Part shown: positions 2,764 through 59,971 of the stretch, one piece after another
Layout of the letters: each line of letters starts with the position of its first letter
Position numbering within the stretch: the first letter of the stretch is position 1
DNA from: Nocardiopsis mwathae
Lineage (GTDB): Bacteria > Actinomycetota > Actinomycetes > Streptosporangiales > Streptosporangiaceae
Direction: 5' to 3'
Assembly (NCBI RefSeq): GCF_014201195.1
Contig: NZ_JACHDS010000001.1
Span: 2,542,001-2,606,000 of the forward strand
DNA length: 64,000 nt
Position numbers and translations under genes: made by a program
The notes under the pieces: model-generated
Told to the model about the DNA's origin: nothing
Databases searched by the model: none
The model's input: the letters and a program-made list of their open reading frames with translations, nothing else

Positions 2764-3018
2764 AGGATTCTCTTCCTCATTCGTCTCGGCTCCGTCCCCG
2801 TGCACACGGACAGGACCGCGATCGTCGGCGGGACTCGGCTTTCGAGAGTCCCGTCTCATCAGATCACGGCCGGTCAGCACGGGTAAAGGGGGTGCTCGGC
2901 CGACGGCGGCCACAGCTTCCCCGACCTTACACGGCACCGGCGACCGTCGCGTCGGGGCACCACCGCGGCCGGGACCCACCGGCTCGGCTCTGCCGGGCGT
3001 CCGCCCGGCCGCGGGCCC

Positions 3019-3840
3019 TTACTCGTCCCGCACGTAGGGCAGGACGGCGTCCGGCCCGGCATACGCGCCGCCCTGCGGCCCACCGTGCCAGAAGGGGTCG
3101 TCGTCGGGGAAGCCCGCGGCGAACCGCGCGGCGTCGTCCACCGGCCGGTAGCCGAGCTCGCTCTCCCCACCGGCGAGGTCCCAGAAGCGCCGGGCGTTGG
3201 CCGAGACCGCGTAGGCGGCGACGAAGCTCACGTTGGGCGCGGTGAGCGCGGCCCGCACGAATCCGGCGCAGTCGCGCGGGCTGAGCCAGGTGGCCAGGTG
3301 CCGGGTCTCGGTCGGCTCCTCCTCGAACGAGCCGAGGCGCAGCGCCACGACCTCCAGACCGAAGGTGTCGGCGTACATCTGCCCGAGCGCCTCGGACGCG
3401 ACCTTGCTCACGCCGTACAGCCCGTCGGGCCGGGGCGGCTCGTCGGGGAAGACGTGGTGGTGGATCGGGTAGTTGCCGGTGACCCTGTTGCTGGACGCGA
3501 GCACGACGCGCCGCACACCGGCGCGCCGTGCCGCCTCCAGGACGTTGAAGGTCCCCTGGACGTTGGTGTCGAGCAGGTCGGCGAAGGGGGCCTCGCCCGA
3601 AAGCCCGGCCAGGTGCACCACCGCCTCGGCGCCCTCGAAGGATCTGGCCAGGGCGCCGAGGTCGGCGATGTCCGCCTTGAGGGCCGTCTCGTTCGCGCCG
3701 TCCGCGGTGACGGATTCGCGGTCGACGAGAACGACGTGTTCGGCGTCCCGGTGGAGAGCGGCGCGCACGGTGGGGCCCACACGGCCCGCCACTCCGGTGA
3801 TCACGACCCTGCCAAGTTTCGCTTCCATGCCCTGGTCCAT
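3019..3840 (-). CDS. NAD-dependent epimerase/dehydratase, uronate dehydrogenase-like
   Basis: This 273-residue short-chain dehydrogenase has the Rossmann motif GVAGRVGPTV near residues 16-25 and the catalytic YxxxK as LYGVSKV. The blocks SSNRVTGNYP, LRLGSF and HLATWLSPRDCAGFV match the uronate dehydrogenase subgroup, which oxidises galacturonate or glucuronate to the aldarolactone with NAD. It is cytosolic. The ATG at 3840 follows a short leader; a second in-frame ATG lies four codons on. It shares orientation with thyX but a 255-base gap argues for separate promoters. The exact sugar substrate is inferred from motif likeness. Confidence 0.8.
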   Translation of the reverse strand: MDQGMEAKLGRVVITGVAGRVGPTVRAALHRDAEHVVLVDRESVTADGANETALKADIADLGALARSFEGAEAVVHLAGLSGEAPFADLLDTNVQGTFNVLEAARRAGVRRVVLASSNRVTGNYPIHHHVFPDEPPRPDGLYGVSKVASEALGQMYADTFGLEVVALRLGSFEEEPTETRHLATWLSPRDCAGFVRAALTAPNVSFVAAYAVSANARRFWDLAGGESELGYRPVDDAARFAAGFPDDDPFWHGGPQGGAYAGPDAVLPYVRDE

Positions 3841-3927
3841 GCGAGGAGCCTATGAGGCATCGGCGCTTTCTTCACGCGACGCGCAAGATGACACCCCGTT
3901 CACTACCCTGTGCGCACATTGCATCAC

Positions 3928-6126
3928 TCAGCGCACCATTCGAAGGGCCCGCTCGACGATCTCCTCCCCCACCGCCGCGGTGAGGATCGACTCCGGATGG
4001 AACTGCACCGCCCACCGCCTGGCACTCCGGTTCTCGATGGCCATGACCACCGTCTCCGGGCCGCCCTCCACGACCGCGGTGACGTCGTAGCCCTTCACCT
4101 GGTCGGGCGTGGTGTAGGTGGAGTGGTAGCGCGCGGCGGTGAACTCTCCGTTCTCCCCCAGCCCCGCCAGCAGGTCACCGCCCGTGACGCGGACCCGCCC
4201 CGGCTTGCCGTGCACCGGTTCCTTCAGCGTGCGCAGCTCGCCTCCGGCGTGCTCCACCATCGCCTGCAACCCCAGGCAGACGCCGAGGACCGGGAGGCCG
4301 CGCCGGTCCAGCGCGTCGAGTAGCCGGTCGGTGTCGAAGTCCTCGGGCAGGCCGGGTCCGGGCGAGAGGACGACGAGGTCGGGCGCGAGCTCGTCGAGCA
4401 GCGCCGGGTCGAATCCGTGCCGCACGGTGGTGACCTCGGCGCCGTGGCGGCGCACGTAGTCGGCCAGAGTGTTGACGAAGGAGTCCTCGTGGTCCACGAG
4501 CAGCACCGTCATCCCGGCGCCGGCGGGTGCGGCGGCGCCCCGGCCGGCCGCGGCGGTGTCGCCCACCGCTGTGCCCGCGCCGTTGCGCGCGTCGTCCAGA
4601 GCCAGGGTCTCCAGCAGTGCCCGAGCCTTGAGGAAGGTCTCACGCTCCTCGGCGTCGGGGTCGGAGTCGTACAGCAGGGTGGCACCGACCCGGACGGTCG
4701 CCACCCCGTCGGTGATGTGCGCGGTCCGCAGGGTCAGTCCGGTGTTCATCGACCCGTCGAAGCCGATGACGCCCACGGCGCCGCCGTACCACCGGCGCGG
4801 CGTGGTCTCGTGCTGTTCGATGAAGCGCATCGCCCAGGTCTTGGGCGCCCCCGTGACGGTCACGGCCCACATGTGGGTGAGGAACGCGTCCAGTGCGTCG
4901 AACTCGGGGCGCAGCGTGCCCTCGATGTGGTCGACGGTGTGGATGAGCCTGCTGTACATCTCGATCTGCCGGCGGCCGATGACGCGGACGCTGCCGGGCT
5001 CGCACACGCGGGACTTGTCGTTGCGGTCGACGTCGGTGCACATGGTCAGCTCGGACTCCTCCTTGGCGGAGGAGAGGAGTTCGCGGATGTTCTCGGCGTC
5101 GCCGAGCGCATCGGCGCCGCGCTTGATGGTGCCGGAGATCGGGCACGTCTCCACCCGCTGCCCTTGGCCGGGTTCGCCGGTGACGCGGACGAACATCTCG
5201 GGTGAGGCGCCCACGAGGTACTCACCCTCGCCCAGGTTGAAGAAGAACTCGTAGGGGGCGGGGTTGCGTTCGCGCAGGTGCTCGTAGAAGCGGGCAGGGG
5301 ACTCGCAGACACCGTAGGTGCGGTGCCCCGGCACGACCTCGAAGAGGTCGCCGCGGACGAACTTCTCCTTGGCCTTGGCCACGATCCGGGCGTAGGAACC
5401 GGGCTCGGGCTGCGGTGGGACCGCCGCAGTGACCACGGCGGGGGTCTCCTCGGTGACGCGGGGCAGGCCGTCGGTGCTGGCGCCCTGCGGCGCGTCGGCG
5501 GCGGGCACGGTGAAGTCGTAGGTGTAGCGGAAGCACGTCTCGCGCTTGCGGTCGCGCACGATGACGGTGTCGGGCAGGTGGAGCACGAGGTCCCGGTCCT
5601 CGGGGTCGCGCTCCAGGACCCGCTCGATCGGCTCGAACTGGAAGGCCAGATCGTAGCCGAACGCACCGTAGAGGCCGAGATGGGGGTCGTCGTCGGCCGA
5701 GAACACGGCGACGATGGACCGCAGGGCGGAGAAGACGCTGGGCCGGCGGCTGCGCTGCTCCTCGGTGAAGAACCCGGAGGGCTCGGGGATCTCGACCTCG
5801 GCCGTGCCCCGGTCGTCGTCCACGGCGGCGGGGGCGTGCTCGTTCAGGGCGCGCACGATCACGGGCAGCAACACGCGCCCCCGGGCGTTGAGCGCGGTGG
5901 CGGTGACGCGCCGCCCCCGGGCGGCCACCTCCAGGCAGGGGTCGACGTATCCGAGGTGCCAGCGGCTGTAACGGCCCGGGTACTCCATGCCGGAGGAGAG
6001 CACCCCGCCGCGGCGGTGCTCGACGGCCGCGACCAGTTCGGTCAGGGCTGCGGGGTCGCAGGACGTGGTGTGGCGGCGGACGGTGATGCCGCCCGCGGTC
6101 CGGTAGGAGGTGGAACTCGCGTCCAA
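3928..6126 (-). CDS. trpEG: Fused anthranilate synthase TrpE-TrpG
   Basis: The 732-residue protein joins both subunits of anthranilate synthase, which converts chorismate and glutamine to anthranilate in tryptophan synthesis. Residues up to about 520 are the chorismate-binding TrpE part, with PISGTIKRG, DRNDKSRVC, HTVDHIEGTLRPE and GAPKTWAM. After a short Ala-rich linker, the glutamine amidotransferase starts at VLLVDHEDSFVNTLADYVRR, with catalytic Cys in GVCLGLQ and the His-Glu pair in VQFHPES. The start is TTG at 6126 with GGGAC upstream. The gene is preceded by a Trp leader peptide and terminator (6178-6299), so it is very probably controlled by transcription attenuation. Confidence 0.95.
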   Translation of the reverse strand: MDASSTSYRTAGGITVRRHTTSCDPAALTELVAAVEHRRGGVLSSGMEYPGRYSRWHLGYVDPCLEVAARGRRVTATALNARGRVLLPVIVRALNEHAPAAVDDDRGTAEVEIPEPSGFFTEEQRSRRPSVFSALRSIVAVFSADDDPHLGLYGAFGYDLAFQFEPIERVLERDPEDRDLVLHLPDTVIVRDRKRETCFRYTYDFTVPAADAPQGASTDGLPRVTEETPAVVTAAVPPQPEPGSYARIVAKAKEKFVRGDLFEVVPGHRTYGVCESPARFYEHLRERNPAPYEFFFNLGEGEYLVGASPEMFVRVTGEPGQGQRVETCPISGTIKRGADALGDAENIRELLSSAKEESELTMCTDVDRNDKSRVCEPGSVRVIGRRQIEMYSRLIHTVDHIEGTLRPEFDALDAFLTHMWAVTVTGAPKTWAMRFIEQHETTPRRWYGGAVGVIGFDGSMNTGLTLRTAHITDGVATVRVGATLLYDSDPDAEERETFLKARALLETLALDDARNGAGTAVGDTAAAGRGAAAPAGAGMTVLLVDHEDSFVNTLADYVRRHGAEVTTVRHGFDPALLDELAPDLVVLSPGPGLPEDFDTDRLLDALDRRGLPVLGVCLGLQAMVEHAGGELRTLKEPVHGKPGRVRVTGGDLLAGLGENGEFTAARYHSTYTTPDQVKGYDVTAVVEGGPETVVMAIENRSARRWAVQFHPESILTAAVGEEIVERALRMVR

Positions 6127-6177: not shown

Positions 6178-6211
6178 GAAACGAGAAGGACGACCGCCGG
6201 TCCGGGCGGTC
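6178..6211 (-). terminator. trp attenuator terminator hairpin
   Basis: On the reverse strand GACCGCC (6211-6205) pairs with GGCGGTC (6198-6192) around a six-base loop, followed by the pyrimidine-rich run GTCCTTCTCGTTT. It sits between the Trp-rich leader ORF and trpEG, exactly where an attenuator terminator belongs. Confidence 0.8.
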
Positions 6212-6299: not shown

Positions 6300-6454
6300 G
6301 CCTGTGAGTGTAGCGCGTCACGCGCGGGTCGGTGCTGAGCGGGGGCGGGACGGCGTGGATGCGGAGTACGCGTCCAGGCGGAGAGCACGCGGAAGTGCTA
6401 GCCTGAACAGCTCGGCACAATAAAAAGTCCCAAAAATAGGAGTGTACCAAAGAG

Positions 6455-8872
6455 ATGGGCATTCGTCAATCCGACGACGCAGACGCGCAGGCCGGAGCCC
6501 TGCACGACGAGCAGGCCTATGTCTCCCGCCTCTACCACCGGCTCGACGCGCTGCGCCGGCACACCCACAACGCCCTTCGTGCGGCCCACACCCAGGGCGG
6601 CGGCGGATACGCGGCCCTCACGGAACGCGAGGTCCGGTCCGACGAACACGCCCGCCGCCTCAGGGAGCTCTCCGAGGTCGAGGAAGGGCTGTGCTTCGGC
6701 CGCATCGACCACCGCGGCGACCGGGACGGCGACCCCGGCGACACCCTCTACATCGGCCGGATCGGGCTACGCGACGAGGAACACGCCACGATCCTGGTCG
6801 ACTGGCGCGCGCCCGCCGCCCGCCCCTTCTACGCGGCCACCCCCGCCACCCCCGGCGACCTCGTCCGCCGGCGCCACCTGCACACCCGGGACCGCAGGGT
6901 GGTCGGCATCGACGACGAGGTGTTCGACCTCGACGGGCTCAGTGACGGCGACCGCCGCTCCCTCGTCGGCGAGGCCGCACTTCTCGCGGGGTTGCGCCGC
7001 GGCCGCACCGGCAGGATGAACGACATCGTCGCCACCATCCAGTCCGAGCAGGACCGCGTCATCCGCTCCGATCTGCAGGGGGTACTGGTGGTGCAGGGCG
7101 GCCCCGGCACCGGCAAGACCGTGGCCGCGCTGCACCGCGCCGCCTACCTCCTCTACACACACCGGGAGACGCTGCGGCGGCGCGGTGTGCTGGTCGTCGG
7201 CCCCAACCCCACCTTCCTGCGCTACATCGGCCGGGTCCTGCCGTCGCTCGGGGAGAGCGACGTGGTGCTGTCCACCGTCGGCGATCTCTACCCGGGGGTG
7301 CGCGCCGGAGCGGTGGACACCGCTGCCGCCGCCGTCGTCAAAGGCGCGGCGTCCATGGCCGACCTGGTGCGCGCGGCGGTCGCCGACCGCCAGCGGGTCC
7401 CCTCCGCGGCGGGACCCGCCGCATCGGTCCCCGGCCGGACCGGGCCGGACGATGTGGCCGAGCACGAGAGCGACCTGGAGATCGAGGTCGACGGCATGGC
7501 GCTGCGCGTCGGCCACGCCGACTGCCGGGCCCTGCGGGACCGAGCGCGATCGCTCGGACTGCCGCACAATGTGGCGCGCAAGTACTTCGTCACCCAGATG
7601 CTGCGGCAGCTGGCGCTCGACCAGGCCGATCTGCTGGACCCGAAGTGGGATCCGGTCGAGGACCCCGACGAGCCCGCCTACCACGACGAGGCCGAGCTGG
7701 ACCACATGAGCACAGGGCTGTGGCAGCAGGACGCGGTGCGCCGAGGACTCGACGAGCTGTGGCCGCTCCTCACCCCGCAGCGGCTCGTGGAAGAGCTGTT
7801 CGCCGACGACGCGGCGCTCGCCCGGGCCGGGGCCGCCGCCGGGCTGGCGGAGGCCGAGTGGAGGACGCTGCGCCGACCTCCCGGAAGCCCGTGGACGGTC
7901 GGTGACATCCCCCTCCTCGACGAGGCCGCAGAGCTGCTCGGCGAGGACGACACCGAGGCACGCGCCCGCCGGCGGCGCGCCGAGCGGGACCGCGCCGACG
8001 CGGAACGCTACGCCCAGGGAGTACTGGAGTTCACCGGCCTGTTCGAGGACGGCATGATGGAGGCGGGGAAGCTGGCCGAACGGCACCACGACTCCGGTCC
8101 ACCGCTCAGCACAGCCGAGCGTGCCCGGGCCGACCGCTCATGGGCCTATGGGCACGTGATCGTGGACGAGGCCCAGGAGCTGTCGGCGATGGCGTGGCGC
8201 ATGGTCATGCGCCGGATCCCGACCCGGTCCCTGACGGTCGTCGGCGACATCGCGCAGACCGGCGACCCGGCCGGAGCCCGATCCTGGGAGACGATGCTGG
8301 CACCGTATGTCCATGGCCGCCTCCACGTGGAGCACCTGCTGGTCAACTACCGGACACCGGCCCGGATCATGGCGGTCGCGGCCGACGTGCTGGCGGAGGT
8401 CGCCCCCGGTCAGAGCGCGCCGGAATCCGTCCGCGACGACGGCGACATGCCGCGCGCGGTGCACGTGGGCGGTACGGGGGCCGCCGGAGCGACACTGGCC
8501 GAGGCCCTGCCGAGGCTGGTCGCCACGGATCTCGCGGCGATGGGCGACGGACGGCTCGCCGTCATCGTCCCCGACGCCCGCCACACCGAAGTCGCGGCCC
8601 TCCTACCGGACGCGGCGGCGGACGCGACCCCGGAGGCACTGGAATCTCCCGCCGCCGTGCTCACCGCCACCCGCTCCAAGGGCCTGGAGTTCGACGCCGT
8701 CATCGTCGTCGAGCCCGGCGCCATCCTGGAGCAGTCCCCCAAGGGCGGCCAGGACCTGTACGTCGCCCTGACCCGGGCGACCCGCAGGTTGACCGTGGTC
8801 CACGAGGGGCCGCTGCCGGAGATGCTGGGGCGGATGGGAACACCGTCACCCACCTTCTCGTGGGATCGATGA
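6455..8872 (+). CDS. helD: HelD-type RNA polymerase-associated helicase
   Basis: This 805-residue UvrD/Rep-like ATPase has a charged N-terminal arm (EQAYVSRLYHRLDALR), Walker A VVQGGPGTGKTVAALHR near residue 211, Walker B VIVDEAQELSAMAW near 570 and the C-terminal helicase blocks VNYRTPARIM, ATRSKGLEFDAVIV and YVALTRATRRL. The domain order matches actinobacterial HelD, which releases stalled RNA polymerase; relatives such as HelR give rifamycin tolerance. I saw no rifamycin-associated element upstream. A possible AT-rich promoter region lies at 6398-6440. Its 3' end overlaps the convergent STAND ATPase gene by 27 bases. Confidence 0.88.
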   Translation: MGIRQSDDADAQAGALHDEQAYVSRLYHRLDALRRHTHNALRAAHTQGGGGYAALTEREVRSDEHARRLRELSEVEEGLCFGRIDHRGDRDGDPGDTLYIGRIGLRDEEHATILVDWRAPAARPFYAATPATPGDLVRRRHLHTRDRRVVGIDDEVFDLDGLSDGDRRSLVGEAALLAGLRRGRTGRMNDIVATIQSEQDRVIRSDLQGVLVVQGGPGTGKTVAALHRAAYLLYTHRETLRRRGVLVVGPNPTFLRYIGRVLPSLGESDVVLSTVGDLYPGVRAGAVDTAAAAVVKGAASMADLVRAAVADRQRVPSAAGPAASVPGRTGPDDVAEHESDLEIEVDGMALRVGHADCRALRDRARSLGLPHNVARKYFVTQMLRQLALDQADLLDPKWDPVEDPDEPAYHDEAELDHMSTGLWQQDAVRRGLDELWPLLTPQRLVEELFADDAALARAGAAAGLAEAEWRTLRRPPGSPWTVGDIPLLDEAAELLGEDDTEARARRRRAERDRADAERYAQGVLEFTGLFEDGMMEAGKLAERHHDSGPPLSTAERARADRSWAYGHVIVDEAQELSAMAWRMVMRRIPTRSLTVVGDIAQTGDPAGARSWETMLAPYVHGRLHVEHLLVNYRTPARIMAVAADVLAEVAPGQSAPESVRDDGDMPRAVHVGGTGAAGATLAEALPRLVATDLAAMGDGRLAVIVPDARHTEVAALLPDAAADATPEALESPAAVLTATRSKGLEFDAVIVVEPGAILEQSPKGGQDLYVALTRATRRLTVVHEGPLPEMLGRMGTPSPTFSWDR

Positions 8873-50371: not shown

Positions 50372-50581
50372 TGTTGTAGCTGGGCGGTCTGGTGTCGCTG
50401 GGTCGCTTGATGGCTGCGCCATCGCTTGGCTGGGTTCGTCCCGGTCTTGGGGTGGTGCAGCTTGTGGTTGCGGCGGGGCGGGCGTTGGCGGTGTTGGGGG
50501 GTGTTTTCAGTTGTGCGCTGGGGGTGGCCGGTTTTGGCCGGTTTCGCTGACACTGCGGTATCGGCCGGTTACCGTCGCCCT
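50372..50581. other. G+T-skewed gap after rtcB
   Basis: About 210 bases, strongly rich in G and T on the + strand with many GGTG, TTGGGG and GGGGGG runs (50390-50560). The GGCCGGTTT motif occurs more than once near 50530-50570. No gene is supported; a reverse-strand ORF in this gap is low-complexity. The end must contain the promoter of the methyltransferase gene at 50582. Confidence 0.5.
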
Positions 50582-51706
50582 ATGAGTGATGATCCCCCCG
50601 GCCCGGACGACCTCGCCGCGCTCGCCAGGCCCGCGTGGGCGGACACGTTCCGAACAGTGCCGCGCGAGCACTTCATCCCCGATGCCGCCCACGCCTCCTA
50701 CATGGGAGACGAACCCAGCCACTGGATCGACTGTCACACCGGCCCTAAGACGTGGAAGAAAGCCGTCTACTCCGACACCACCATCCTCACCCAGGTCGAC
50801 GACGGACAGGCTCCCCTCACCGAGGAGAGTGCGACGACGAGCATCAACCCGTCGTCGTCCAATACCGCCCCCAGCTTGGTCGCCCAGTTCCTCGAACTGC
50901 TCGACCCCTACCCGGGCGACCGGGTCCTGGAAATCGGGACCGGGACCGGGTGGACCGCCGCACTCCTGTCGGCGCGCCAAGGCGCGGAGAACGTGTACTC
51001 GGTCGAGGTGGACGAACATGTCGCCGAGCAGGCCGCCGCGAACGTGAAGCGCGCCGGATACGCTCCGCACCTGAGGGTCGGGGACGGGGCGCAGGGGTGG
51101 CCCGAGGAGGCGCCCTTCGACCGGGTGCACGTCACCTGCGGTGTGCGGGAGATCCCGTATGCGTGGGTGGAGCAGACCCGCCCCGGCGGCGTGATCGTCG
51201 CGCCGTGGACCCCTGTCCAGGCGGTGGGGCACAAGCTGGTGCTGACGGCCGCCGGTGATGTGGCTGTCGGCCGGCCTCGGGGTCGGGCGGGGTTCATGAT
51301 GATGCGCTCGCAGCGGGCCGGGTACCCCACGCCCGTCGGGGAACGGCGGGAGTCCGTGGCGACGGTCGATCCGATGCGGATCAGCCGGGCCGGTCCCGGG
51401 TTGGAGATGGCGGTGGCGGCGTTCATGCCGGGTGTGGCTGTGAACGGGCTGGGGAGCGGTGATGACCGCGTCGGCCTGCGGCACCCCGCCACCGGTTCCT
51501 ACGCGCTGGCGGTTCGCTCCGACTGCGGTGTGAAGGCGAGGGTCGGTGAGCACGGCCCGCGTTCGCTGTGGCCGGAGTTCGAGAACGCCTATCTGGAGTG
51601 GCTGAGTTGGGGCTCCCCGGGCCTCGACCGGTTCGGCGTTGCTGTGACGTCGGAGGGACAGTCCATCTGGCTGGACCATCCGGACAACCCGATCGGGAAG
51701 GTGTGA
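50582..51706 (+). CDS. PCMT-like protein methyltransferase
   Basis: A 374-residue SAM-dependent methyltransferase of the protein-L-isoaspartate O-methyltransferase type: DPYPGDRVLEIGTGTGWTAALLSA near residues 118-141 is motif I, and THVTCGVREIPYAWVEQTRPGG-like RVHVTCGVREIPYAWVEQ is the post-I region. The N-terminal part TFRTVPREHFIPDAA is typical. C-terminal 150 residues are an extra domain. Actinobacterial members of this type often sit with ATP-grasp RiPP genes, but none is here. It may repair isoaspartate or modify a peptide. ATG 50582 is clear. Confidence 0.82.
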   Translation: MSDDPPGPDDLAALARPAWADTFRTVPREHFIPDAAHASYMGDEPSHWIDCHTGPKTWKKAVYSDTTILTQVDDGQAPLTEESATTSINPSSSNTAPSLVAQFLELLDPYPGDRVLEIGTGTGWTAALLSARQGAENVYSVEVDEHVAEQAAANVKRAGYAPHLRVGDGAQGWPEEAPFDRVHVTCGVREIPYAWVEQTRPGGVIVAPWTPVQAVGHKLVLTAAGDVAVGRPRGRAGFMMMRSQRAGYPTPVGERRESVATVDPMRISRAGPGLEMAVAAFMPGVAVNGLGSGDDRVGLRHPATGSYALAVRSDCGVKARVGEHGPRSLWPEFENAYLEWLSWGSPGLDRFGVAVTSEGQSIWLDHPDNPIGKV

Positions 51707-51943: not shown

Positions 51944-52126
51944 CTACAGCTTCTCCTCGCGCACAGCCGCCAGAAACACGGACTGCTCACGCGCACCGAA
52001 GCTCAAGAAGCCAAGGCCAGGGTGCTGAGAGTCCCGCAGGTCAGCCCCGTGCTCATGCTCCCGCGTCTCGACGCAGTTGGTGCCGCCTGAGCTGTATGTG
52101 GACTTATGCCACATGCTGTTCATCAT
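51944..52126 (-). CDS. DUF397 small protein
   Basis: The 60-residue protein MMNSMWHKSTYSSGGTNCVE followed by ADLRDSQHPGLGFLSFGAREQSVFLAAV matches the DUF397 family: WxKSxYS, CVE and LRDSKxP are its marks. DUF397 genes commonly follow XRE/DUF5753 regulators in streptomycete-type genomes, and some pairs act like toxin-antitoxin or developmental switches. Here the ATG lies 23 bases within the end of the upstream XRE gene, so they are coupled. Confidence 0.9.
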   Translation of the reverse strand: MMNSMWHKSTYSSGGTNCVETREHEHGADLRDSQHPGLGFLSFGAREQSVFLAAVREEKL

Positions 52127-52928
52127 CCAACCTCTTTATTTCCTGCTGAAGCGCCTTAAGCGTCTCGCTCACCGCCCAGGCTTCGCTTTGCAGCCTGCCG
52201 AAGAGCAGCCGGTAGTGTTCCACATCAACCATGTTGGTGATGAACTGGCCGTAGTGGATCGACTCGGCATAGACCACCGGCTTCGGGTGACCGGTGACCA
52301 CCGCGAAGGACCCTGAGTTTCCCGGGTGGGTCGGGCTGGCCGCTCGTACTGCCTGAAGCGTCAGCCGTCCCCGCTGGACCAGGTCCTCCAGGAACCGCAG
52401 TTGCCCCAGCATGACAGCCGCGGAACCGTACCGCCGCCACAGTACGGTCTCGTCCACGACACACCACATGATCGGGTGGGCCGCCTTGACTACGCGCTGG
52501 CTCTCCGCTGCACGCTGGGTTGCCTTGGCAGCGACTTCGTCCTCGGTCAACCAAGGGACACCGTTGCGGATGACCGCCTGAGCGTACTCCTCAGTCTGCA
52601 GGTACCCGGGGAACGAGATCATCTGATATTCGAAGACGGACGCGCCCTCGCGGACCAGCTGGGAAAACTCACTCAGCCAGGCTTGGCGGCCGTTGCCCGT
52701 CAGGTCTTCCCAAAGCCGGTCGAGCTGACCATACCCCAACTTTTCGTCGAGCTTGGACCGGATATCTCCCTTCAGCGGGGCCTCTCCTCGCTCGATCGCG
52801 GAGACGAGGCTCTTACTGCATCCCACGCGGTGGGCAAGCGACGCTTGCGTCATTCCAGCATCGTTGCGCAGGCGCCTCACTTCATTCCCGTAGCGCCTGC
52901 GGATACGTTCATCCTCATCGATGGACAT
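52104..52928 (-). CDS. XRE-family regulator with DUF5753 domain
   Basis: The 274-residue protein has an N-terminal helix-turn-helix (YGNEVRRLRNDAGMTQASLAHRVGCSKSLVSAIERGEAP) and a DUF5753 C-terminal domain (SVFEYQMISFPGYLQTEEYAQAVIR, ILQAVRAASP-like RLTLQAVRAASPTHPG, FAVVTGHPKPVVYAESIHYGQFI). Such Scr1-type regulators are numerous in actinobacteria; they bind partner DUF397 proteins and DNA. ATG 52928. The gap upstream to 53418 should contain its promoter and the direct repeats described separately. Confidence 0.92.
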   Translation of the reverse strand: MSIDEDERIRRRYGNEVRRLRNDAGMTQASLAHRVGCSKSLVSAIERGEAPLKGDIRSKLDEKLGYGQLDRLWEDLTGNGRQAWLSEFSQLVREGASVFEYQMISFPGYLQTEEYAQAVIRNGVPWLTEDEVAAKATQRAAESQRVVKAAHPIMWCVVDETVLWRRYGSAAVMLGQLRFLEDLVQRGRLTLQAVRAASPTHPGNSGSFAVVTGHPKPVVYAESIHYGQFITNMVDVEHYRLLFGRLQSEAWAVSETLKALQQEIKRLDDEQHVA

Positions 52929-53417: not shown

Positions 53418-54023
53418 ATGGGTACCGCGAACCCCACCGCCACAGACGCGTTCACGAACGCCCGGACGGAAGCGTTCACCACCGGCTTCGAGCTGAAGCG
53501 ATACCGAACCGAAGGCAGTTACCGGTACGAGCTCCGCAACGCCCGCACCAAGCAACTGCACCCGTTCAACCACCTAAGCGAGGTAATCAGCTTCCTCCAG
53601 CACCCGGAGCTCCCACACCGCACCGACCCCCGCACCTACGCCCTGGACCTGCCGGGCGAGGAACAATCCGCAGGCCAAGCCCGCGAGTTCGTCCACCGCA
53701 AAGCCCGAGGCATCGGTACGGCCAGCCGGCCGATCCGGCAGGTGACAGGTGAGCTCGTCGCCAACGCGCTCCGGCACAGCCGCTCCGGCCAGGCCGAGGG
53801 GTGTATCGCCCTGCGCCTCACCCTCCACCCCGAGAAGGTCCGGGTGGAGGTCACCGACGACGGCCCCGCCGCACCCGGGGACGTTCCCCAGGTTCAGCTA
53901 TTCGACCCGGACCGCCAGAGCGGGCGCGGCCTGATGCTCGTCGAGGCGTTCACTCTGGGCCGGTGGGGTTTCCACCGCCGACCGGACGGGGGCACCACCG
54001 TGTGGGCGGAGGTCCCCCGATGA
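53418..54023 (+). CDS. RsbW-like ATP-binding protein (HATPase_c)
   Basis: The 201-residue protein has a GHKL ATPase domain: RQVTGELVANALRHSRSG (N box, with Glu and Asn), VRVEVTDDGPAAP (G1 box), SGRGLMLVEAFTLGRWG (G2 box) near residues 110-185. It is similar to anti-sigma-factor-like ATPases that are common next to DUF397/XRE regulators. The first 90 residues are not recognised. Stop and next start share ATGA, so the gene is coupled to the following small gene. Confidence 0.85.
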   Translation: MGTANPTATDAFTNARTEAFTTGFELKRYRTEGSYRYELRNARTKQLHPFNHLSEVISFLQHPELPHRTDPRTYALDLPGEEQSAGQAREFVHRKARGIGTASRPIRQVTGELVANALRHSRSGQAEGCIALRLTLHPEKVRVEVTDDGPAAPGDVPQVQLFDPDRQSGRGLMLVEAFTLGRWGFHRRPDGGTTVWAEVPR

Positions 54024-54522: not shown

Positions 54523-54972
54523 ATGCTGCAAACCCGCCCCTCCCCCGCCTTCGGGCTGCGGACTTACCGCAAACACCCGCACACCACCGACCTGGCCATC
54601 CACCCCGGCACGCAAGGACTGACCGTCACCCAGGAGTCGGCCGTCGACAGCGTCGCCCACGCCCTGGACCTTGAGGTCGGCGCGCCGGTCATCGCCAGAA
54701 CCGGCGTGTACTGGCGGGCGAATACCCCGGTGCAGTCCCTGCGGACCTACTTCCCCACCGGTGTGCGGCGTTTAGGCGAGCCCTCGCGGGTGACCGAGGA
54801 GGCCACCGTGCGGTTGGCGACGCCGCGGGAGCAGGCCGAGCTCGATCTGGGGGCGCTGTCCCCGGTGATGGCGCTGCGGCGCATCGCCTACGCCACTACG
54901 GGGCGGCCGGTCGAGCTGACGGTGTGCGTGCTGGTGCCCGGCTATGCCGCTGTGTACCAGCTCGACGTGTGA
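54523..54972 (+). CDS. UTRA-domain protein without HTH
   Basis: The 149-residue product reads ARTGVYWRANTPVQSLRTYFPTGVRRL, VTEEATVRLATPREQAELDL and LRRIAYATTGRPVELTVCVLVPGYAAVYQLDV. That is the ligand-binding UTRA domain of GntR/HutC regulators, but the winged-helix N-terminal part is missing; before it lies only a short FGLRTYRKHPHTTDLAIHPG segment. It could be a truncated regulator or a free ligand-binding partner. ATG 54523 has GAGG upstream. No HTH remnant is evident just upstream. Confidence 0.7.
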   Translation: MLQTRPSPAFGLRTYRKHPHTTDLAIHPGTQGLTVTQESAVDSVAHALDLEVGAPVIARTGVYWRANTPVQSLRTYFPTGVRRLGEPSRVTEEATVRLATPREQAELDLGALSPVMALRRIAYATTGRPVELTVCVLVPGYAAVYQLDV

Positions 54973-55240: not shown

Positions 55241-56881
55241 ATGGCGACCGACGAACGCCCTCCGATACTCGTTCTGGGAACCTCCGAACGCGTCGGGTCG
55301 AACTGGGTCCTCGACTCCCTGCGACACGCCACCATCCAGCACAACGAACCCCTTCGCCAGCAGCTCGGGAGGCAGCACCCACTCGCTCCCCTGACCACGG
55401 CCGCGGCAACGAGCACCGCCGTGCGCACTCCGGTCGCCGCATACTGGGTCGATTCCTTCAAACGGAGCAAGTACCGCAACGGCCGCCACGTCATCAAAGA
55501 GACCAACCTGTACTTCACAGCGGCACCGTTCCTCGCGCTGTTCCCGGACTCACCCGTTGTGGTGCTCTCCCGGTCCCCACTGGGGGTGGCCAGCTCCTTT
55601 ACGCGCGGCGCCCTTTGGGATCGGTGGGACTACGGAAGCATCTACCGCCGTGTCGCGGCCTTGGCCCACGAGGACGACCACCGCGGCTGGTCGCAGCTCG
55701 TACCCGATGACGACCCGTGCCCGCCCGTCGCGCTTACGCGCCTGATCACGTTGAACGCGGCGCTGCTGGCCGAAGCCCTCGGCGACCGCGAGCACGCGCA
55801 TGTGGCCTACGAAGCCGCGGTCCTCGACTGGCAAACCGCCACGCGCCCCTTGGCCGACCTGGCTGAGGAATTCGACTCTGCGCGTCCGTTCCCCTCGCAG
55901 GAAGCACCCTCCTGTGACGGCACGTTCGCGACGACGACGAACAAGGACCGCTTGGTCGCGCGTCTACGCCCTGGAACCGGCGACGTGGTGGCATCCGAGA
56001 CGGCACGATGTCTGGGGCTACTCCGCAGCATCGTCTCGCCCCAGTCGTCCGAAACGGTTGGGCACTGGCTTGCCGGGGCCGATTCCTACACAATGGCCGC
56101 CTTCAACCGCGCCACAGCCACCACCCCGGCGCCGCCGGCCACTGTCCACAGGGCAGGAACCGAACCGGTCTATGTGCCCGCGACTCCCCCCGGCATCCAG
56201 TGGCGGAACCTGCTGGTCTCCAACGCCGAGATGTGCGTCTTTCTCAACCGGCTGAGCGATGCGGGCGTGAAGACCACCCTGCACGGGGTGCACCTCGTCG
56301 CGATCCCCATGCCGCATGAACGCGGCGGCCGACTCCACTGCACGGAGCAGGGTTGGCGGGTGAGCCGTGGATACGAACGGCATCCGGCCTACTGGATCAC
56401 CTGGATCGGAGCCGCCGCCTACGCCCTCTGGGACGGGGCCCGGCTCCCGACCAGCAACGAACTGGACGCCCTCACCGAAGGCGCTCACCCCCGCAACGCC
56501 GAGTACCGGGTGGGCGACGTGACCCCCGCCCAGGAGTCCGGACTAGGGCCGAAAGCTGTACACCACCGGGTCGGCAACCTTCGGGTGTGGTGCTCCGACG
56601 GGCCGGACGACGGACCGGACTGGGCGCCCATAACGCGGTACCGGCACGGCGCCGCGTGGAACACACCCGCGTCGCGCCAGGAGGTGACGAGTCGACGTTC
56701 CCGGCACCTGCTCGGAGCTTCGCGAGGTGTCGGTGTACGGCTGGCCCGCGACACCGCTGCCCCTGACCGCTGTCCGCTGGATGAGATCGCCGACCGCATA
56801 AGCCGGTGGCTCGCCCTGTTGGGCGACCGGACGCGCCCTCTGGCGGAGCTCGACCAGGAGGCCATCACCCTCCTGTCATAG
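55241..56881 (+). CDS. Sulfotransferase / formylglycine-generating-enzyme-like fusion
   Basis: A 546-residue protein of two parts. Residues 1-215 look like a sulfotransferase: LVLGTSERVGSNWVLDSL (10-27) is the PAPS phosphate loop, VVVLSRSPLGVASSF (106-120) the 3'-phosphate motif. Residues 319-503 look like an FGE/SUMF1-EgtB-like domain: WRNLLVSNAEMCVFLNRL, HPAYWITWIGAAAYALWDGARLPTSNELDAL, NLRVWCSDGP and YRHGAAWNTPA, RGVGVRLARD. The usual catalytic Cys near the C-terminus of FGE is not seen, so it may do other oxidation chemistry. ATG 55241 has AGGAG. I know no characterised protein with this pairing. Its neighbours are a NUDIX hydrolase and a sugar nucleotidyltransferase. Confidence 0.7.
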   Translation: MATDERPPILVLGTSERVGSNWVLDSLRHATIQHNEPLRQQLGRQHPLAPLTTAAATSTAVRTPVAAYWVDSFKRSKYRNGRHVIKETNLYFTAAPFLALFPDSPVVVLSRSPLGVASSFTRGALWDRWDYGSIYRRVAALAHEDDHRGWSQLVPDDDPCPPVALTRLITLNAALLAEALGDREHAHVAYEAAVLDWQTATRPLADLAEEFDSARPFPSQEAPSCDGTFATTTNKDRLVARLRPGTGDVVASETARCLGLLRSIVSPQSSETVGHWLAGADSYTMAAFNRATATTPAPPATVHRAGTEPVYVPATPPGIQWRNLLVSNAEMCVFLNRLSDAGVKTTLHGVHLVAIPMPHERGGRLHCTEQGWRVSRGYERHPAYWITWIGAAAYALWDGARLPTSNELDALTEGAHPRNAEYRVGDVTPAQESGLGPKAVHHRVGNLRVWCSDGPDDGPDWAPITRYRHGAAWNTPASRQEVTSRRSRHLLGASRGVGVRLARDTAAPDRCPLDEIADRISRWLALLGDRTRPLAELDQEAITLLS

Positions 56882-57316
56882 TCCGATGGCCGACTTCGGC
56901 CCCATGTAGGACCCGGCGCCGGGGAACCCGTTCTTGACCAGTTCGGCGAACCGCTCGCTGAATCCGAGTTGCGGCAGGTCCCCGGTCTTGACGAATTCCA
57001 CTCCGCGAATCGGGCGGGTGTCGATTCCCTCGGCGATTTCACCAAGTGCCCCGCCCACCCTTCGCACCTCGAAAGTCATGTGTATGACGTGAAGCCCCTT
57101 TTCCGGAACGATGTGGTCGCACACGTAAAGCAGACGGCCGACTTCAACGTCGATCCCGGTTTCTTCTCGCATTTCGCGAACGAGGGCGCCGCCAAGTGTC
57201 TCGCCCTCCTCGACCCGGCCACCGGGCAGGCTCCATCTGCGGGGACCGTCGGTGTCCTGGTCCAGCAGCAATACCTGCCCGTCCTCCACAAGGAGGCCCG
57301 TCACACGTGTATCCAT
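56876..57316 (-). CDS. NUDIX hydrolase
   Basis: The 146-residue protein carries the NUDIX box GRVEEGETLGGALVREMREETGIDV near residues 32-56, with all Glu residues for Mg2+ binding. Members hydrolyse nucleoside diphosphate derivatives such as nucleotide sugars. ATG 57316. Its 3' end overlaps the fusion-protein gene by six bases (convergent). The start is only 29 bases from the divergent nucleotidyltransferase start, so both share a promoter region; a nucleotide-sugar substrate fits the context. Confidence 0.92.
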   Translation of the reverse strand: MDTRVTGLLVEDGQVLLLDQDTDGPRRWSLPGGRVEEGETLGGALVREMREETGIDVEVGRLLYVCDHIVPEKGLHVIHMTFEVRRVGGALGEIAEGIDTRPIRGVEFVKTGDLPQLGFSERFAELVKNGFPGAGSYMGPKSAIGL

Positions 57317-57345: not shown

Positions 57346-57936
57346 ATGCCATCGATCAGCGGAAAACAGCATTCAGTGATGATCGCGGCTGGTGGACTGG
57401 GGACAAGGCGAGCGAACTGGTCCCGCTTCCTACCGAAGGAGTACTTCCCAGTCCAGGGAAAGCCGGGCATCGCACTCCTCATGGAGGAAATCGCGGAGTT
57501 GGGAAAGGTCCGGGCTGTCATGGTGCACCACCCCTACTACTCCCAGTTCGCAGCATGGGCGACCCGCGTACTGAACATGCCCTCCGACTACGACCACGTC
57601 GCCGGCACCGCGCCCGAGGCGCAGCGCTGGCCCGGGGTGAGCCTGGAGCTGATCGCCCAGAGCGGACCCTATGGCGACATCACGTCCGTGCTCAACGCCG
57701 ATGACCACCTCAGCCACCCCGACGATCTCTACGTCATGTACGCCGACAACCTCTACCCTCGCGCACAGCCCGTGATGCACCTGAGTGGAATGGAAGCCGG
57801 GACCGCGGTGATCGCGCGCCCCTACACGCGCTCCGAGGCTGCGCAACGCGGCGTCATCGTCTGCGACAGCGACCGCATGATCCGATTGGTGGAGAAGCCG
57901 GACGACCGGGCAGCCCGCGCCCTCGAAGCCCGCTAC
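57346..57936 (+). pseudogene. Sugar nucleotidyltransferase, N-terminal part (split by IS element)
   Basis: The first 197 codons encode VMIAAGGLGTRRANWSRFLPKEYFPVQGKPGIALLMEEI (NTP-binding loop and PKE motif), VMYADNLYPRAQPVMHL (metal Asp) and VVEKPDD-like RLVEKPDDRAARALEARY, as in glucose-1-phosphate-type nucleotidyltransferases that make NDP-sugars. The IS605-type element begins right after the TAC codon at 57934-57936. The frame then reads into the element and stops at 57966 with the foreign tail RDRRQCSGL. The C-terminal part lies at 59768-59971; excision would restore a 264-residue protein. Confidence 0.9.
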
Positions 57937-57987
57937 CGGGATCGTCGGCAGTGCTCCGGCCTCTAGGCCGGAGGTGAAGCCGACTCG

Positions 57988-58034
57988 CCCGCGTAGCGGG
58001 GCACGAAGCGTCGAACCGCCGCTAGGCGGTCCGG
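57988..58034 (+). repeat. Left-end repeat of the tnpA/tnpB element
   Basis: CCCGCGTAGCGGG followed by GAACCGCCGCTAGGCGGTCC. Almost the same sequence in reverse orientation is at 17565-17613 in the tnpB-only element. Confidence 0.85.
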
Positions 58035-58045
58035 CGCCCCATCCG

Positions 58046-58462
58046 CTAGACCGGGCGGTTCTGCTGCTCGATGTACTGGCGCAATACCGATATAGGTGCG
58101 CCGCCCACCGAACCGGCGAAATACGACCCCGCCCACAGCTTGTTCGCCCGCCAGTAGTGCCGCACCAGGTCAGGGAATTCCTGGCGCAACCTACGAGAGC
58201 TGACGCCCTTCAAGCTGTTGACCAGCTTCGACAGCGCGACCTTCGGAGGAAAGTTCACCAGCAGGTGCACGTGGTTGGCTTCCCCGTTGAACTCGCGTAG
58301 TTCGGTCTCGAAGTCCGCGCACACGTCCCGCATGATCTCTTCCATGCGGCTCAGGTGGTGGTCTCCGAACACGGGGTGCCGGTACTTCGTCACGAAAACC
58401 AAGTGTGCGTGCAGGACGAAAGCGCAGTGTCTGCCTGTCCTGATGTCCGCGTAGTCGCCCAT
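58046..58462 (-). CDS. tnpA: TnpA Y1 transposase (IS200/IS605 family)
   Basis: The 138-residue HUH-type transposase has the His-hydrophobic-His motif NHVHLLV at residues 63-69 and the catalytic Tyr130 in LRQYIEQQ; LVFVTKYRHPVF near the N-terminus is the family opening. It excises and inserts single-stranded element DNA by recognising end hairpins. Size and key residues suggest it is active. It is divergent from tnpB with 26 bases between. It could also mobilise the tnpB-only element at 16.2 kb, whose ends are similar. Confidence 0.95.
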   Translation of the reverse strand: MGDYADIRTGRHCAFVLHAHLVFVTKYRHPVFGDHHLSRMEEIMRDVCADFETELREFNGEANHVHLLVNFPPKVALSKLVNSLKGVSSRRLRQEFPDLVRHYWRANKLWAGSYFAGSVGGAPISVLRQYIEQQNRPV

Positions 58463-58488
58463 AGCCCAACCGTAATACAGTGTCCGCT

Positions 58489-59637
58489 ATGCAGCTCCGG
58501 TACCAGTTCCGCGTGTACCCGAGCGCCCCGCAGAGAACCAAGCTGGCGAAGGCGTTCGGGTGCGCTCGCGTCGTCTTCAACGACGCCCTCCGCGCCCGCC
58601 AGGACGCCTACAACAGCGGAGCCAAGCGCCCCACCGCTGCGGAACTGTCGAAGCGGTTCATCACCGAGGCGAAGAAGACCAAGGAGCGCAACTGGCTGGA
58701 TGACGTCTCGGCCGTGGTGCTCCAGCAGTCCCTGAGGGACCTGGAGACGGCGTATTCCAACTTCTTCGCGTCGAAGAAGGGCACCCGCAGCGGTCCGAAG
58801 ACGGGGCCGCCGACGTTCAAGAAGAAGACCAGCCGCCAAGCGGTCAGGTTCACCAGGAACGCCCGGTTCGCCATCACCGCGGACGGCAGGCTCCGCTTGC
58901 CGAAGATCGGCGACGTGAAAGTGAGATGGTCCCGCACCCTGCCGTCCGAACCGTCGTCGGTGACCGTGATCAAGGACGCCTCCGGGCGGTACTTTTGTTC
59001 GTTCGTGGTCGAGACCGAGGACAAGCCGCTCCCGGAACTCGACCTGGACGAGACCGAGACCGGTATCGATCTCGGACTGTCCACGTACGCGGTCCTGCGG
59101 GGACGCAAGATCACGGCCCCGAAGTTCTTCCGACGTGCCGAGCGCAAGCTCAAGCGGGCACAGCGCAAACTGTCCCGAGCACAGAAGGGATCGAAGAACC
59201 GGCGCAAGGCCAAGCTGGCCCTCGCCGAAGTCCATGCCCGCGTTGCTGACCAGCGGCGCGACTTCATCGAACAGCACACCACCAGGATCGCGAGCGAGAG
59301 CCAAGCCGTGTACCTGGAGGACCTGAACGTGAAGGGCATGGGCAAGGGCAGGCGCGCCAGATCCGTCCGCGATCAGTCGCTGGGAAGGTTCGCCCGCACC
59401 CTGGAAGCCAAGTGCGCGAGATACGGGCGCGGATTCGCCAAGGTCGACCGGTGGTTCCCGTCCACTCAGCTCTGTTCGGCCTGCGGGTCGATCGAAGGCC
59501 CCAAGGGACTGGAAGGGCTCAAGGTCCGGTTGTGGACGTGCTCATGCGGAGCCGCCCACGACCGGGACGAAAACGCTGAACTCAACATCCGCCGCGAAGG
59601 GCGGAGCATCGTGGCCGAGGGACGCCCGGACACGTAA
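58489..59637 (+). CDS. tnpB: TnpB RNA-guided nuclease
   Basis: This 382-residue TnpB has RuvC residues Asp194 (GIDLG), Glu277 (LEDLN) and Asp360 (DRDENAELNI), plus a zinc ribbon at Cys329, Cys332, Cys351 and Cys353. N-terminal QLRYQFRVYPSAPQRTKLAKAFG is typical. It should cut empty donor sites next to the target motif, guided by RNA from the right end. ATG 58489 was chosen over GTG 58480. It differs much from the TnpB at 16.3 kb in spite of shared element ends. Confidence 0.94.
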   Translation: MQLRYQFRVYPSAPQRTKLAKAFGCARVVFNDALRARQDAYNSGAKRPTAAELSKRFITEAKKTKERNWLDDVSAVVLQQSLRDLETAYSNFFASKKGTRSGPKTGPPTFKKKTSRQAVRFTRNARFAITADGRLRLPKIGDVKVRWSRTLPSEPSSVTVIKDASGRYFCSFVVETEDKPLPELDLDETETGIDLGLSTYAVLRGRKITAPKFFRRAERKLKRAQRKLSRAQKGSKNRRKAKLALAEVHARVADQRRDFIEQHTTRIASESQAVYLEDLNVKGMGKGRRARSVRDQSLGRFARTLEAKCARYGRGFAKVDRWFPSTQLCSACGSIEGPKGLEGLKVRLWTCSCGAAHDRDENAELNIRREGRSIVAEGRPDT

Positions 59638-59767
59638 AACGCCTCGTGGAGCCCGTGTAAGACCCGGAAATCCGGGCGGTGGGTGATGAAGCAGGAACCA
59701 CTAGGCACGTGCTGGAAACAGCGGCGGCACGGTGGGAATCCCCTCCCTTCAGGGAGGGGAGCGTCAA
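59638..59767 (+). ncRNA. Likely omega RNA scaffold and right end
   Basis: The 130 bases from the tnpB stop to the border should form the guide RNA scaffold in IS605 elements. They hold a GACCCGGAAATCCGGG-type hairpin (59661-59676) and the terminal CCCCTCCC hairpin. The guide would then be the flank at 59768, the interrupted gene itself. Inferred from family biology. Confidence 0.5.
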
Positions 59768-59971
59768 GGCATCGACAACCTCGCACTCATGACGGGACGC
59801 GCGCGGGTCAGCCGCTCATTCCTCGACTTCCTGCACGCCCACCGGCACCCCGGCGGAGAGCCGAAGCTCTCACTGGCCCTGTCCGCCTTCGCCAAGACGG
59901 CACCGGTCAGAGTCCGGCGGGTCGACACTCCTGTGACCGACCTCGGGGCGCCTCTCCCGAGCGCCGAGTGA
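59768..59971 (+). pseudogene. Sugar nucleotidyltransferase, C-terminal part
   Basis: After the element, the frame GIDNLALMTGRARVSRSFLD continues to DTPVTDLGAPLPSAE and a stop, 67 residues. It joins exactly to codon 197 of the 5' part at 57936. It has no own start, so it is not expected to be expressed. The 299 bases that follow (59972-60270) hold no gene that I can support, only GC-rich inverted repeats. Confidence 0.88.

Follow-up and report, generated by a model that had tools for sequence, protein, structure and literature searches.

A predicted sulfotransferase fused to an FGE-type domain without the FGE cysteine pair in Nocardiopsis mwathae and other bacteria

Sulfotransferases make sulfate esters and FGE-type enzymes arm the sulfatases that cleave them, placing the two at opposite ends of the same chemistry. 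The donor-binding loop of PAPS sulfotransferases usually takes an RSGTT-type form. FGE itself carries a copper-binding cysteine pair, and in EgtB a three-histidine iron site is held by a DinB domain. Here, we describe a gene that unites a predicted sulfotransferase with an FGE-type domain, found in a 64,000-nucleotide stretch of the Nocardiopsis mwathae genome (the window). Both folds are already known; what is new is their stable union, the existence of a split counterpart, and the cassette in which they sit. A prior sequence-only reading of this DNA knew of no characterised fusion of the two, and none is described in the literature that we searched, although most subscription papers and preprints were beyond reach, so that a report may have been missed. 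The label of a Streptomyces fusion gene in its plasmid record, SUMF1/EgtB/PvdO family nonheme iron enzyme, overlooks the sulfotransferase half.

The fusion gene lies at 55241..56881 on the forward strand, is intact, encodes 546 amino acids, and has homologous fusions elsewhere. Its ATG at 55241 is preceded, nine bases upstream, by GGAG. An in-frame ATG at 54944 is a possible longer start, yet full-length relatives align from residue 1-7 onward. Within the window protein, Pfam FGE-sulfatase passes its cut-off of 23.3 over residues 373-427 (4.6e-6, 26.9 bits), and Sulfotransfer_3, matched at residues 38-157 (4e-4, 21.2 bits), falls short of its cut-off of 27. Compared as a single sequence with the PDB, the protein has no significant match (best E 0.13). 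Because the Sulfotransfer_3 score falls under the Pfam cut-off, one sequence proves the fusion only by half: the sequence-only reading had held that it would fail if either half did not score, and the FGE half is over its cut-off, the window's sulfotransferase half below. The window protein alone thus gives thin evidence of both domains, and it is sequence comparison with relatives that settles the two-domain identity. The distant member L053 (L053:3134-4840) exceeds the cut-offs within a single chain (FGE-sulfatase 51.1, Sulfotransfer_3 38.0 and Sulfotransfer_1 24.0 bits), which settles the architecture, and the family profile matches both of its halves (2.2e-18 and 5.1e-15). Across 13 aligned members, Pfam at E<=1 detects FGE-sulfatase in 12 and Sulfotransfer_3 in eight; the L007 fusion has no Pfam family match at E<=0.1. 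Taken together, family, motif and fold evidence bear out the original proposal that both domains reside on a single chain.

Residues 1-290 (55241..56110, forward strand) are predicted, from Foldseek, VIA-align and the sub-cut-off Pfam match, to form a sulfotransferase fold with PAPS-type motifs. An AlphaFold model of the whole fusion, made from a six-sequence input, is modest, with a mean pLDDT of 51.1. Searching with it, Foldseek returned only sulfotransferases at ranks 1-21, with a best E of 1.3e-4 and three rows reaching E<=0.001. All 50 rows listed by VIA-align were likewise sulfotransferases, with Z of 10.1-11.5, and almost every one of these alignments fell inside residues 1-288; since this comparison covers approximately that region, the absence of FGE rows from it is uninformative about the C-terminal half. 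The N-terminal half thus models as a sulfotransferase, within a model that is weak overall.

A 5'-phosphosulfate-loop-like motif, GTSERVGSN, spans residues 13-21 (55277..55303), H34-N35-E36-P37 follows at 55340..55351, and a 3'-phosphate-binding-like motif, R111...S119, lies at 55571..55597, all on the forward strand. Invariant in all 13 aligned members are G13, E16, R17, G19, S20, H34, N35, E36, K86-N89, R111 and S119, in agreement with the PAPS-type loop and 3'-phosphate motif first read from the sequence. The R+8=S spacing of R111 and S119 is that of the sulfotransferase 3'-phosphate motif, and E36 occupies the site of the catalytic base in Stf0 and TPST2. L053 retains R17, G19, E36, K86-T88, R111 and S119, and E36, R111 and S119 are also kept in L052. 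Accordingly, the fusion resembles PAPS sulfotransferases (Sulfotransfer_3, PF13469; TPST, CurM and STF9 structures) in its predicted fold over about residues 1-288, its PAPS-type loop, the placing of E36 and the R+8=S motif. It differs from them in the sub-cut-off score of the window protein and in the added C-terminal FGE-fold domain. The conserved H34-N35-E36 and K86-E-T-N stretches are its own, as seen within the family alone.

The C-terminal FGE/SUMF1-type domain covers about residues 305-505 (56153..56755, forward strand) and was recognised by Pfam, family profile and alignment. Against the PDB, this half of the family profile retrieves SUMF2, FGE and EgtB structures at approximately 1e-3. 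As in FGE/SUMF1 (PF03781), the domain scores over its cut-off and contains the W..A..A...G.RLPT and GN..W motifs. Unlike FGE, it is attached to a sulfotransferase, its Pfam match begins only at position 83 of the 255-position profile, and the cysteine pair is missing. In an alignment with L016-L018, three FGE relatives in which both cysteines are present, eight of nine family rows lack the pair (the window, L021, L002, L005, L024, L007, L052 and L081), and the ninth, L053, has only the second of the two. The idea of a SUMF1-fold domain without the catalytic cysteine is thereby upheld, and since the pair is missing, an active FGE is ruled out.

A comparison with the sulfoxide and selenoneine synthases EgtB, SenA and OvoA leads to a similar result. 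They share the FGE-type C-terminal domain with the fusion; here, however, the profile matches are sub-threshold, the fold matches non-significant, and a sulfotransferase stands in the place of DinB. No DinB domain was matched in the window protein by Pfam at E<=10, and the curated NCBIfam models of EgtB/SenA type gave 17.3 and 17.7 bits, where their cut-offs stand at 360 and 420. An EgtB-type enzyme was ruled out on the missing DinB match and on the N-terminal half modelling as a sulfotransferase. Cys oxidation or C-S bond formation by the C-terminal half, as originally suggested, is not supported, given the missing cysteine pair and DinB domain. An AlphaFold model of this half alone (pLDDT 39.7) is too poor for conclusions; Foldseek found no significant match to it, with EgtB leading at a best E of 0.16.

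Intact fusions number 17: 11 among 345 genomes of the host's order, three in Streptomyces (L005, L008 and L009), and three (L007, L052 and L053) in the GTDB phylum of a Saccharibacteria relative, a phylum broader than Saccharibacteria proper. A pattern-based scan of one genome per species across 84,980 species, which detects close relatives only, gave six loci: four in Nocardiopsis (52-58%), one in Streptomyces (46%) and one on a Candidatus Saccharibacteria contig (29%). In the host's order, 14 of the 345 genomes match at E<=1e-15, and 11 of these fusions are unbroken and full-length. Of the other three, G192 is split into two pieces, one of them containing a TGA, the match in G229 is confined to 176-540, and G233 is a fragment; they are left out of the 17, as is the broken plasmid copy L010. 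Several records duplicate one another: the G192 locus appears again as L006, L033, L036 and L041, L027-L030 duplicate L002-L004 and L037, and G1079, with the coordinates of the L009 record, is counted once with it. A class-wide draw of 394 genomes yielded three matches, all among those already found. Two of 61 Streptomyces genomes match, namely the query centre itself and one with the coordinates of L009, as do three of 332 genomes in the Saccharibacteria relative's phylum. Plasmids carry two full-length fusions and one broken, all in Streptomyces, and 12 further plasmid records match the FGE part only. With L053 as the query, only L053 itself and G1026 were recovered among 361 genomes of its phylum, and no plasmid held a relative covering 80% of L053.

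The L007 contig looks genuine. By reading, it also carries SmpB and ATP-synthase genes, and its genome is about 0.9 Mb. At L007:2878-6180, the fusion is accompanied by a kinase-like gene, a NUDIX gene and an acetyltransferase-like gene. GC content is 40-44% over positions 3001-6000 of this contig and 47-53% elsewhere on it, and the low-GC stretch may have been acquired. Separately, the broken fusion on a Streptomyces plasmid (L010:4557-5474) has IS1380 and IS3 transposases nearby.

The two domains also occur as neighbours. In L081 (genome G270), a sulfotransferase gene is followed directly by an FGE-fold gene, convergent with the same kind of NUDIX gene. The sulfotransferase (4728-5546, 272 aa) is over the Sulfotransfer_3 cut-off at 61.8 bits; the FGE-fold gene, ending at 6210, scores 122.3 bits for FGE-sulfatase and would encode 223 aa with an 8-base overlap if an inner ATG at 5539 is its start. 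The pair matches the fusion in domains, their order, the convergent NUDIX gene and the missing FGE cysteines. It differs in its division into two genes, its distant sequence and a possible 98-aa ORF (6305-6601) between the FGE-fold gene and NUDIX. Half-profiles were run locally against 6701 ORFs from the loci examined and the window. At E<=1, the N-terminal profile matched only family members, L053 and the L081 sulfotransferase (E 4e-4), and the C-terminal profile gave the L081 FGE gene 41.6 bits (3.9e-11) against at most 31.5 bits for other FGE-domain ORFs. No stand-alone close relative of the N-terminal half was found among 150 genomes at E<=1e-3; six of these match the FGE part only. A survey of fused and split homologues, as recommended at the outset, thus returned 17 intact fusions and one split pair, and such a conserved pairing of two folds predicts a joint function, of which the literature searched contained no test. 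Codon comparisons (Nei-Gojobori, six pairs) gave dN/dS of 0.24-0.41 for the N-terminal half, 0.14-0.32 for the C-terminal half and a noisier 0.17-0.83 for the short tail, indicating purifying selection on both halves.

The fusion belongs to a small conserved cassette, which the sequence-only reading had passed over. Converging on the fusion with a 6-base overlap is a NUDIX hydrolase gene (56876..57316, reverse strand; Pfam NUDIX 62.2 bits), whose product ends in the tail GAGSYMGPKSAIGL. In seven of 15 loci, the TAG stop of the fusion is the antisense of the last NUDIX codon. The cassette NUDIX matches 3ID9, a MutT/NUDIX protein of Bacillus thuringiensis, over its full length including a like tail (1.4e-35); the available part of PMC5389931 lists the function of 3ID9 as undetermined. 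Beyond it, on the forward strand, lies an interrupted GalU/RmlA-like nucleotidyltransferase gene. Its N-terminal part (57346..57936) was assigned by Pfam NTP_transferase, which also matches the intact nucleotidyltransferase in L021, and by tblastn; its C-terminal part (59768..59968) matches the L021 protein at residues 196-262 with 77.6% identity. Between them is an IS200/IS605-like insertion (57937..59767), named by reading, as were its tnpA-like (58046-58462, reverse) and tnpB-like (58480-59637, forward) genes, without a family search. With this element inside the nucleotidyltransferase gene, the cassette of this host is probably incomplete.

All 14 intact actinobacterial fusions are followed by a convergent NUDIX gene and then a sugar-nucleotidyltransferase-like gene, that of the window being the interrupted one, and NUDIX lies near 16 of the 17 intact fusions. 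In L007 and L052, the fusion is joined by a P-loop nucleotide-kinase-like gene and NUDIX. No NUDIX was seen, by reading, on the 7 kb contig of L053, and no nucleotidyltransferase was seen near the fusions of L007, L052 and L053 (from ORF lists for the latter two). The L053 fusion sits between methyltransferase and HAD hydrolase genes (L053:2575-5559), a second context for the fusion. Upstream of the window's fusion are an XRE/DUF5753 regulator gene (52104..52928, reverse strand), whose cluster recurs in eight of 18 loci compared, and an anti-sigma-like HATPase gene (53418..54023, forward strand), whose cluster occurs in two of the 18, the window included; the HATPase is possibly a regulator.

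NUDIX is far more widespread than the fusion, occurring at E<=1e-20 in 52 of 342 genomes of the order, against the 14 of 345 for the fusion, so that its link to the sulfotransferase is loose. Thirteen of the 52 have a full or partial fusion, and the surroundings of NUDIX were read in 20 others. Among these 20, one has the split pair (L081), and in three (L076, L087 and L090) the nucleotidyltransferase or pieces of it adjoin NUDIX; these may be relics of the cassette. At L087:6714-7400, fragments of the FGE part and of the nucleotidyltransferase lie on either side of NUDIX, in cassette order, and this is probably such a relic. No common partner was seen in the remaining 16, whose gene calls were read without family searches.

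We tentatively favour, at a little less than even confidence, a PAPS-dependent sulfotransferase with an acceptor-binding, C-type-lectin-like FGE-fold domain, acting in a nucleotide-linked cassette. The N-terminal half would bind PAPS through loop residues 13-21 and R111/S119, with E36 as the general base acting on the acceptor. We infer that the C-terminal half recognises and presents this acceptor, because its cysteines are gone and FGE-type domains act elsewhere as lectin-like or sensing domains, according to the accessible parts of PMC8195603 and PMC10907252. Fusion, NUDIX and nucleotidyltransferase would then make up a small mobile cassette for the synthesis or editing of a metabolite that is both sulfated and nucleotide-activated. 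The neighbouring genes hint that the acceptor is attached to a nucleotide or freed from one, a view to which we give about one chance in three. This leaves a compact target that could lead to a new sulfated metabolite: three genes, one invariant candidate catalytic glutamate and one split control.

A bifunctional enzyme is a less likely explanation. Here, the C-terminal half would be a second catalytic centre, of non-FGE chemistry with other metal ligands or none, whose reaction would precede or follow sulfation of the same substrate. This half is constrained at least as strongly as the other by its dN/dS, R361-G-G-R364, W385, W388, N446, W450 and C451 are invariant in all 13 aligned members, and the enzymes FGE and EgtB are among the best structures for the family profile. 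Such conservation is, however, also expected of binding domains. C451 is threonine in L053, and its counterpart in an FGE structure is also a cysteine (WCSDW); both the depleted FGE pair, of which L053 keeps one cysteine, and the lack of a detectable DinB iron-site domain weigh against a second active centre.

The favoured mechanism supposes a supply of PAPS, and it is quite unlikely, in our judgement, that the sulfotransferase fold serves some other donor or nucleotide. APS kinase is present in all five actinobacterial genomes tested, which speaks for PAPS. In the Saccharibacteria relative's phylum, two of the three carrier genomes, whose completeness is not given, show no APS kinase and the third has a match only at 21.7 bits against a cut-off of 21.1, with the family detected in 11 of 14 control genomes. 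These results are awkward for PAPS use in those carriers and favour another donor, and they raise the question of how sulfation could run in genomes of 0.8-0.9 Mb that show no clear APS kinase. Another donor would also fit the P-loop nucleotide-kinase-like neighbour of the L007 and L052 fusions and the loop of the 13 aligned members, ER[VT]GS[NT], which departs from the usual form. Against this, the R/S motif and E36 are invariant out to L053, where the loop is the classical RSGTNW, and epibionts may take PAPS from their hosts. It is possible that the fusion is a new sulfur-tailoring enzyme, as first proposed. The fullest version of that idea seems decidedly unlikely: a new class of two-domain sulfur enzyme whose halves work successively on a single nucleotide-linked metabolite, one by sulfation and the FGE-fold half by a different, non-FGE reaction, with mobile cassettes spanning actinobacteria and minute-genome bacteria of the Saccharibacteria relative's phylum, the latter possibly drawing on host PAPS.

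Very unlikely, in turn, is a conflict or sensing system, in which the FGE-fold domain would detect a ligand that is foreign or lies on a surface, with the sulfotransferase as effector or modifier. The patchy distribution, the two intact and one broken plasmid cases, and the incomplete copies in G192, G229 and G233 are all compatible with it, and the accessible parts of PMC8195603 and PMC10907252 propose FGE-type domains as sensors in conflict systems. PADLOC, however, matched neither the fusion (E<=0.1) nor the nucleotidyltransferase, NUDIX matched only PDC-S07, an undescribed candidate model, and no typical effector gene was noticed within the cassette. Neither the fusion nor the cassette NUDIX has a match in phages, and 131 pattern stretches on viral contigs held no confirmed fusion relative, leaving a phage or viral system unsupported. 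Finally, high-GC DNA, the interrupted nucleotidyltransferase and the incomplete relatives might suggest adjacent genes mistaken for one, or else a pseudogene in decay, but the same fusion is intact in 17 cases across two phyla with dN/dS below 0.42 in both halves, which rules out a chance merger of two genes and makes any artefact extremely improbable.

Other features of these loci deserve mention. In L039:7953-11021, L040:9373-11718 and L038:8759-11071, no stop codon interrupts the frame from the fusion through the end of the antisense NUDIX gene, and in L039 and L040 the frame extends into the nucleotidyltransferase as a single ORF (1022 aa in L039); these open frames are possibly triple fusions across an antisense gene, or accidents of high GC. 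On the Streptomyces plasmid L008 (15035-18482), a hypothetical gene, a radical SAM gene, tmk and a second NUDIX gene directly follow the cassette. Apart from the hypothetical gene, these resembled a pathway, an idea that was rejected, since among the loci compared the only recurrences are a tmk-like gene near the cassette in L039 and a relative of the second NUDIX in L010. In the window, the gene at 50426-51706 encodes a methyltransferase like those associated with ATP-grasp peptide maturases (TIGR04188, 271.7 bits against a cut-off of 380), and relatives of it are also found in L021 and L022.
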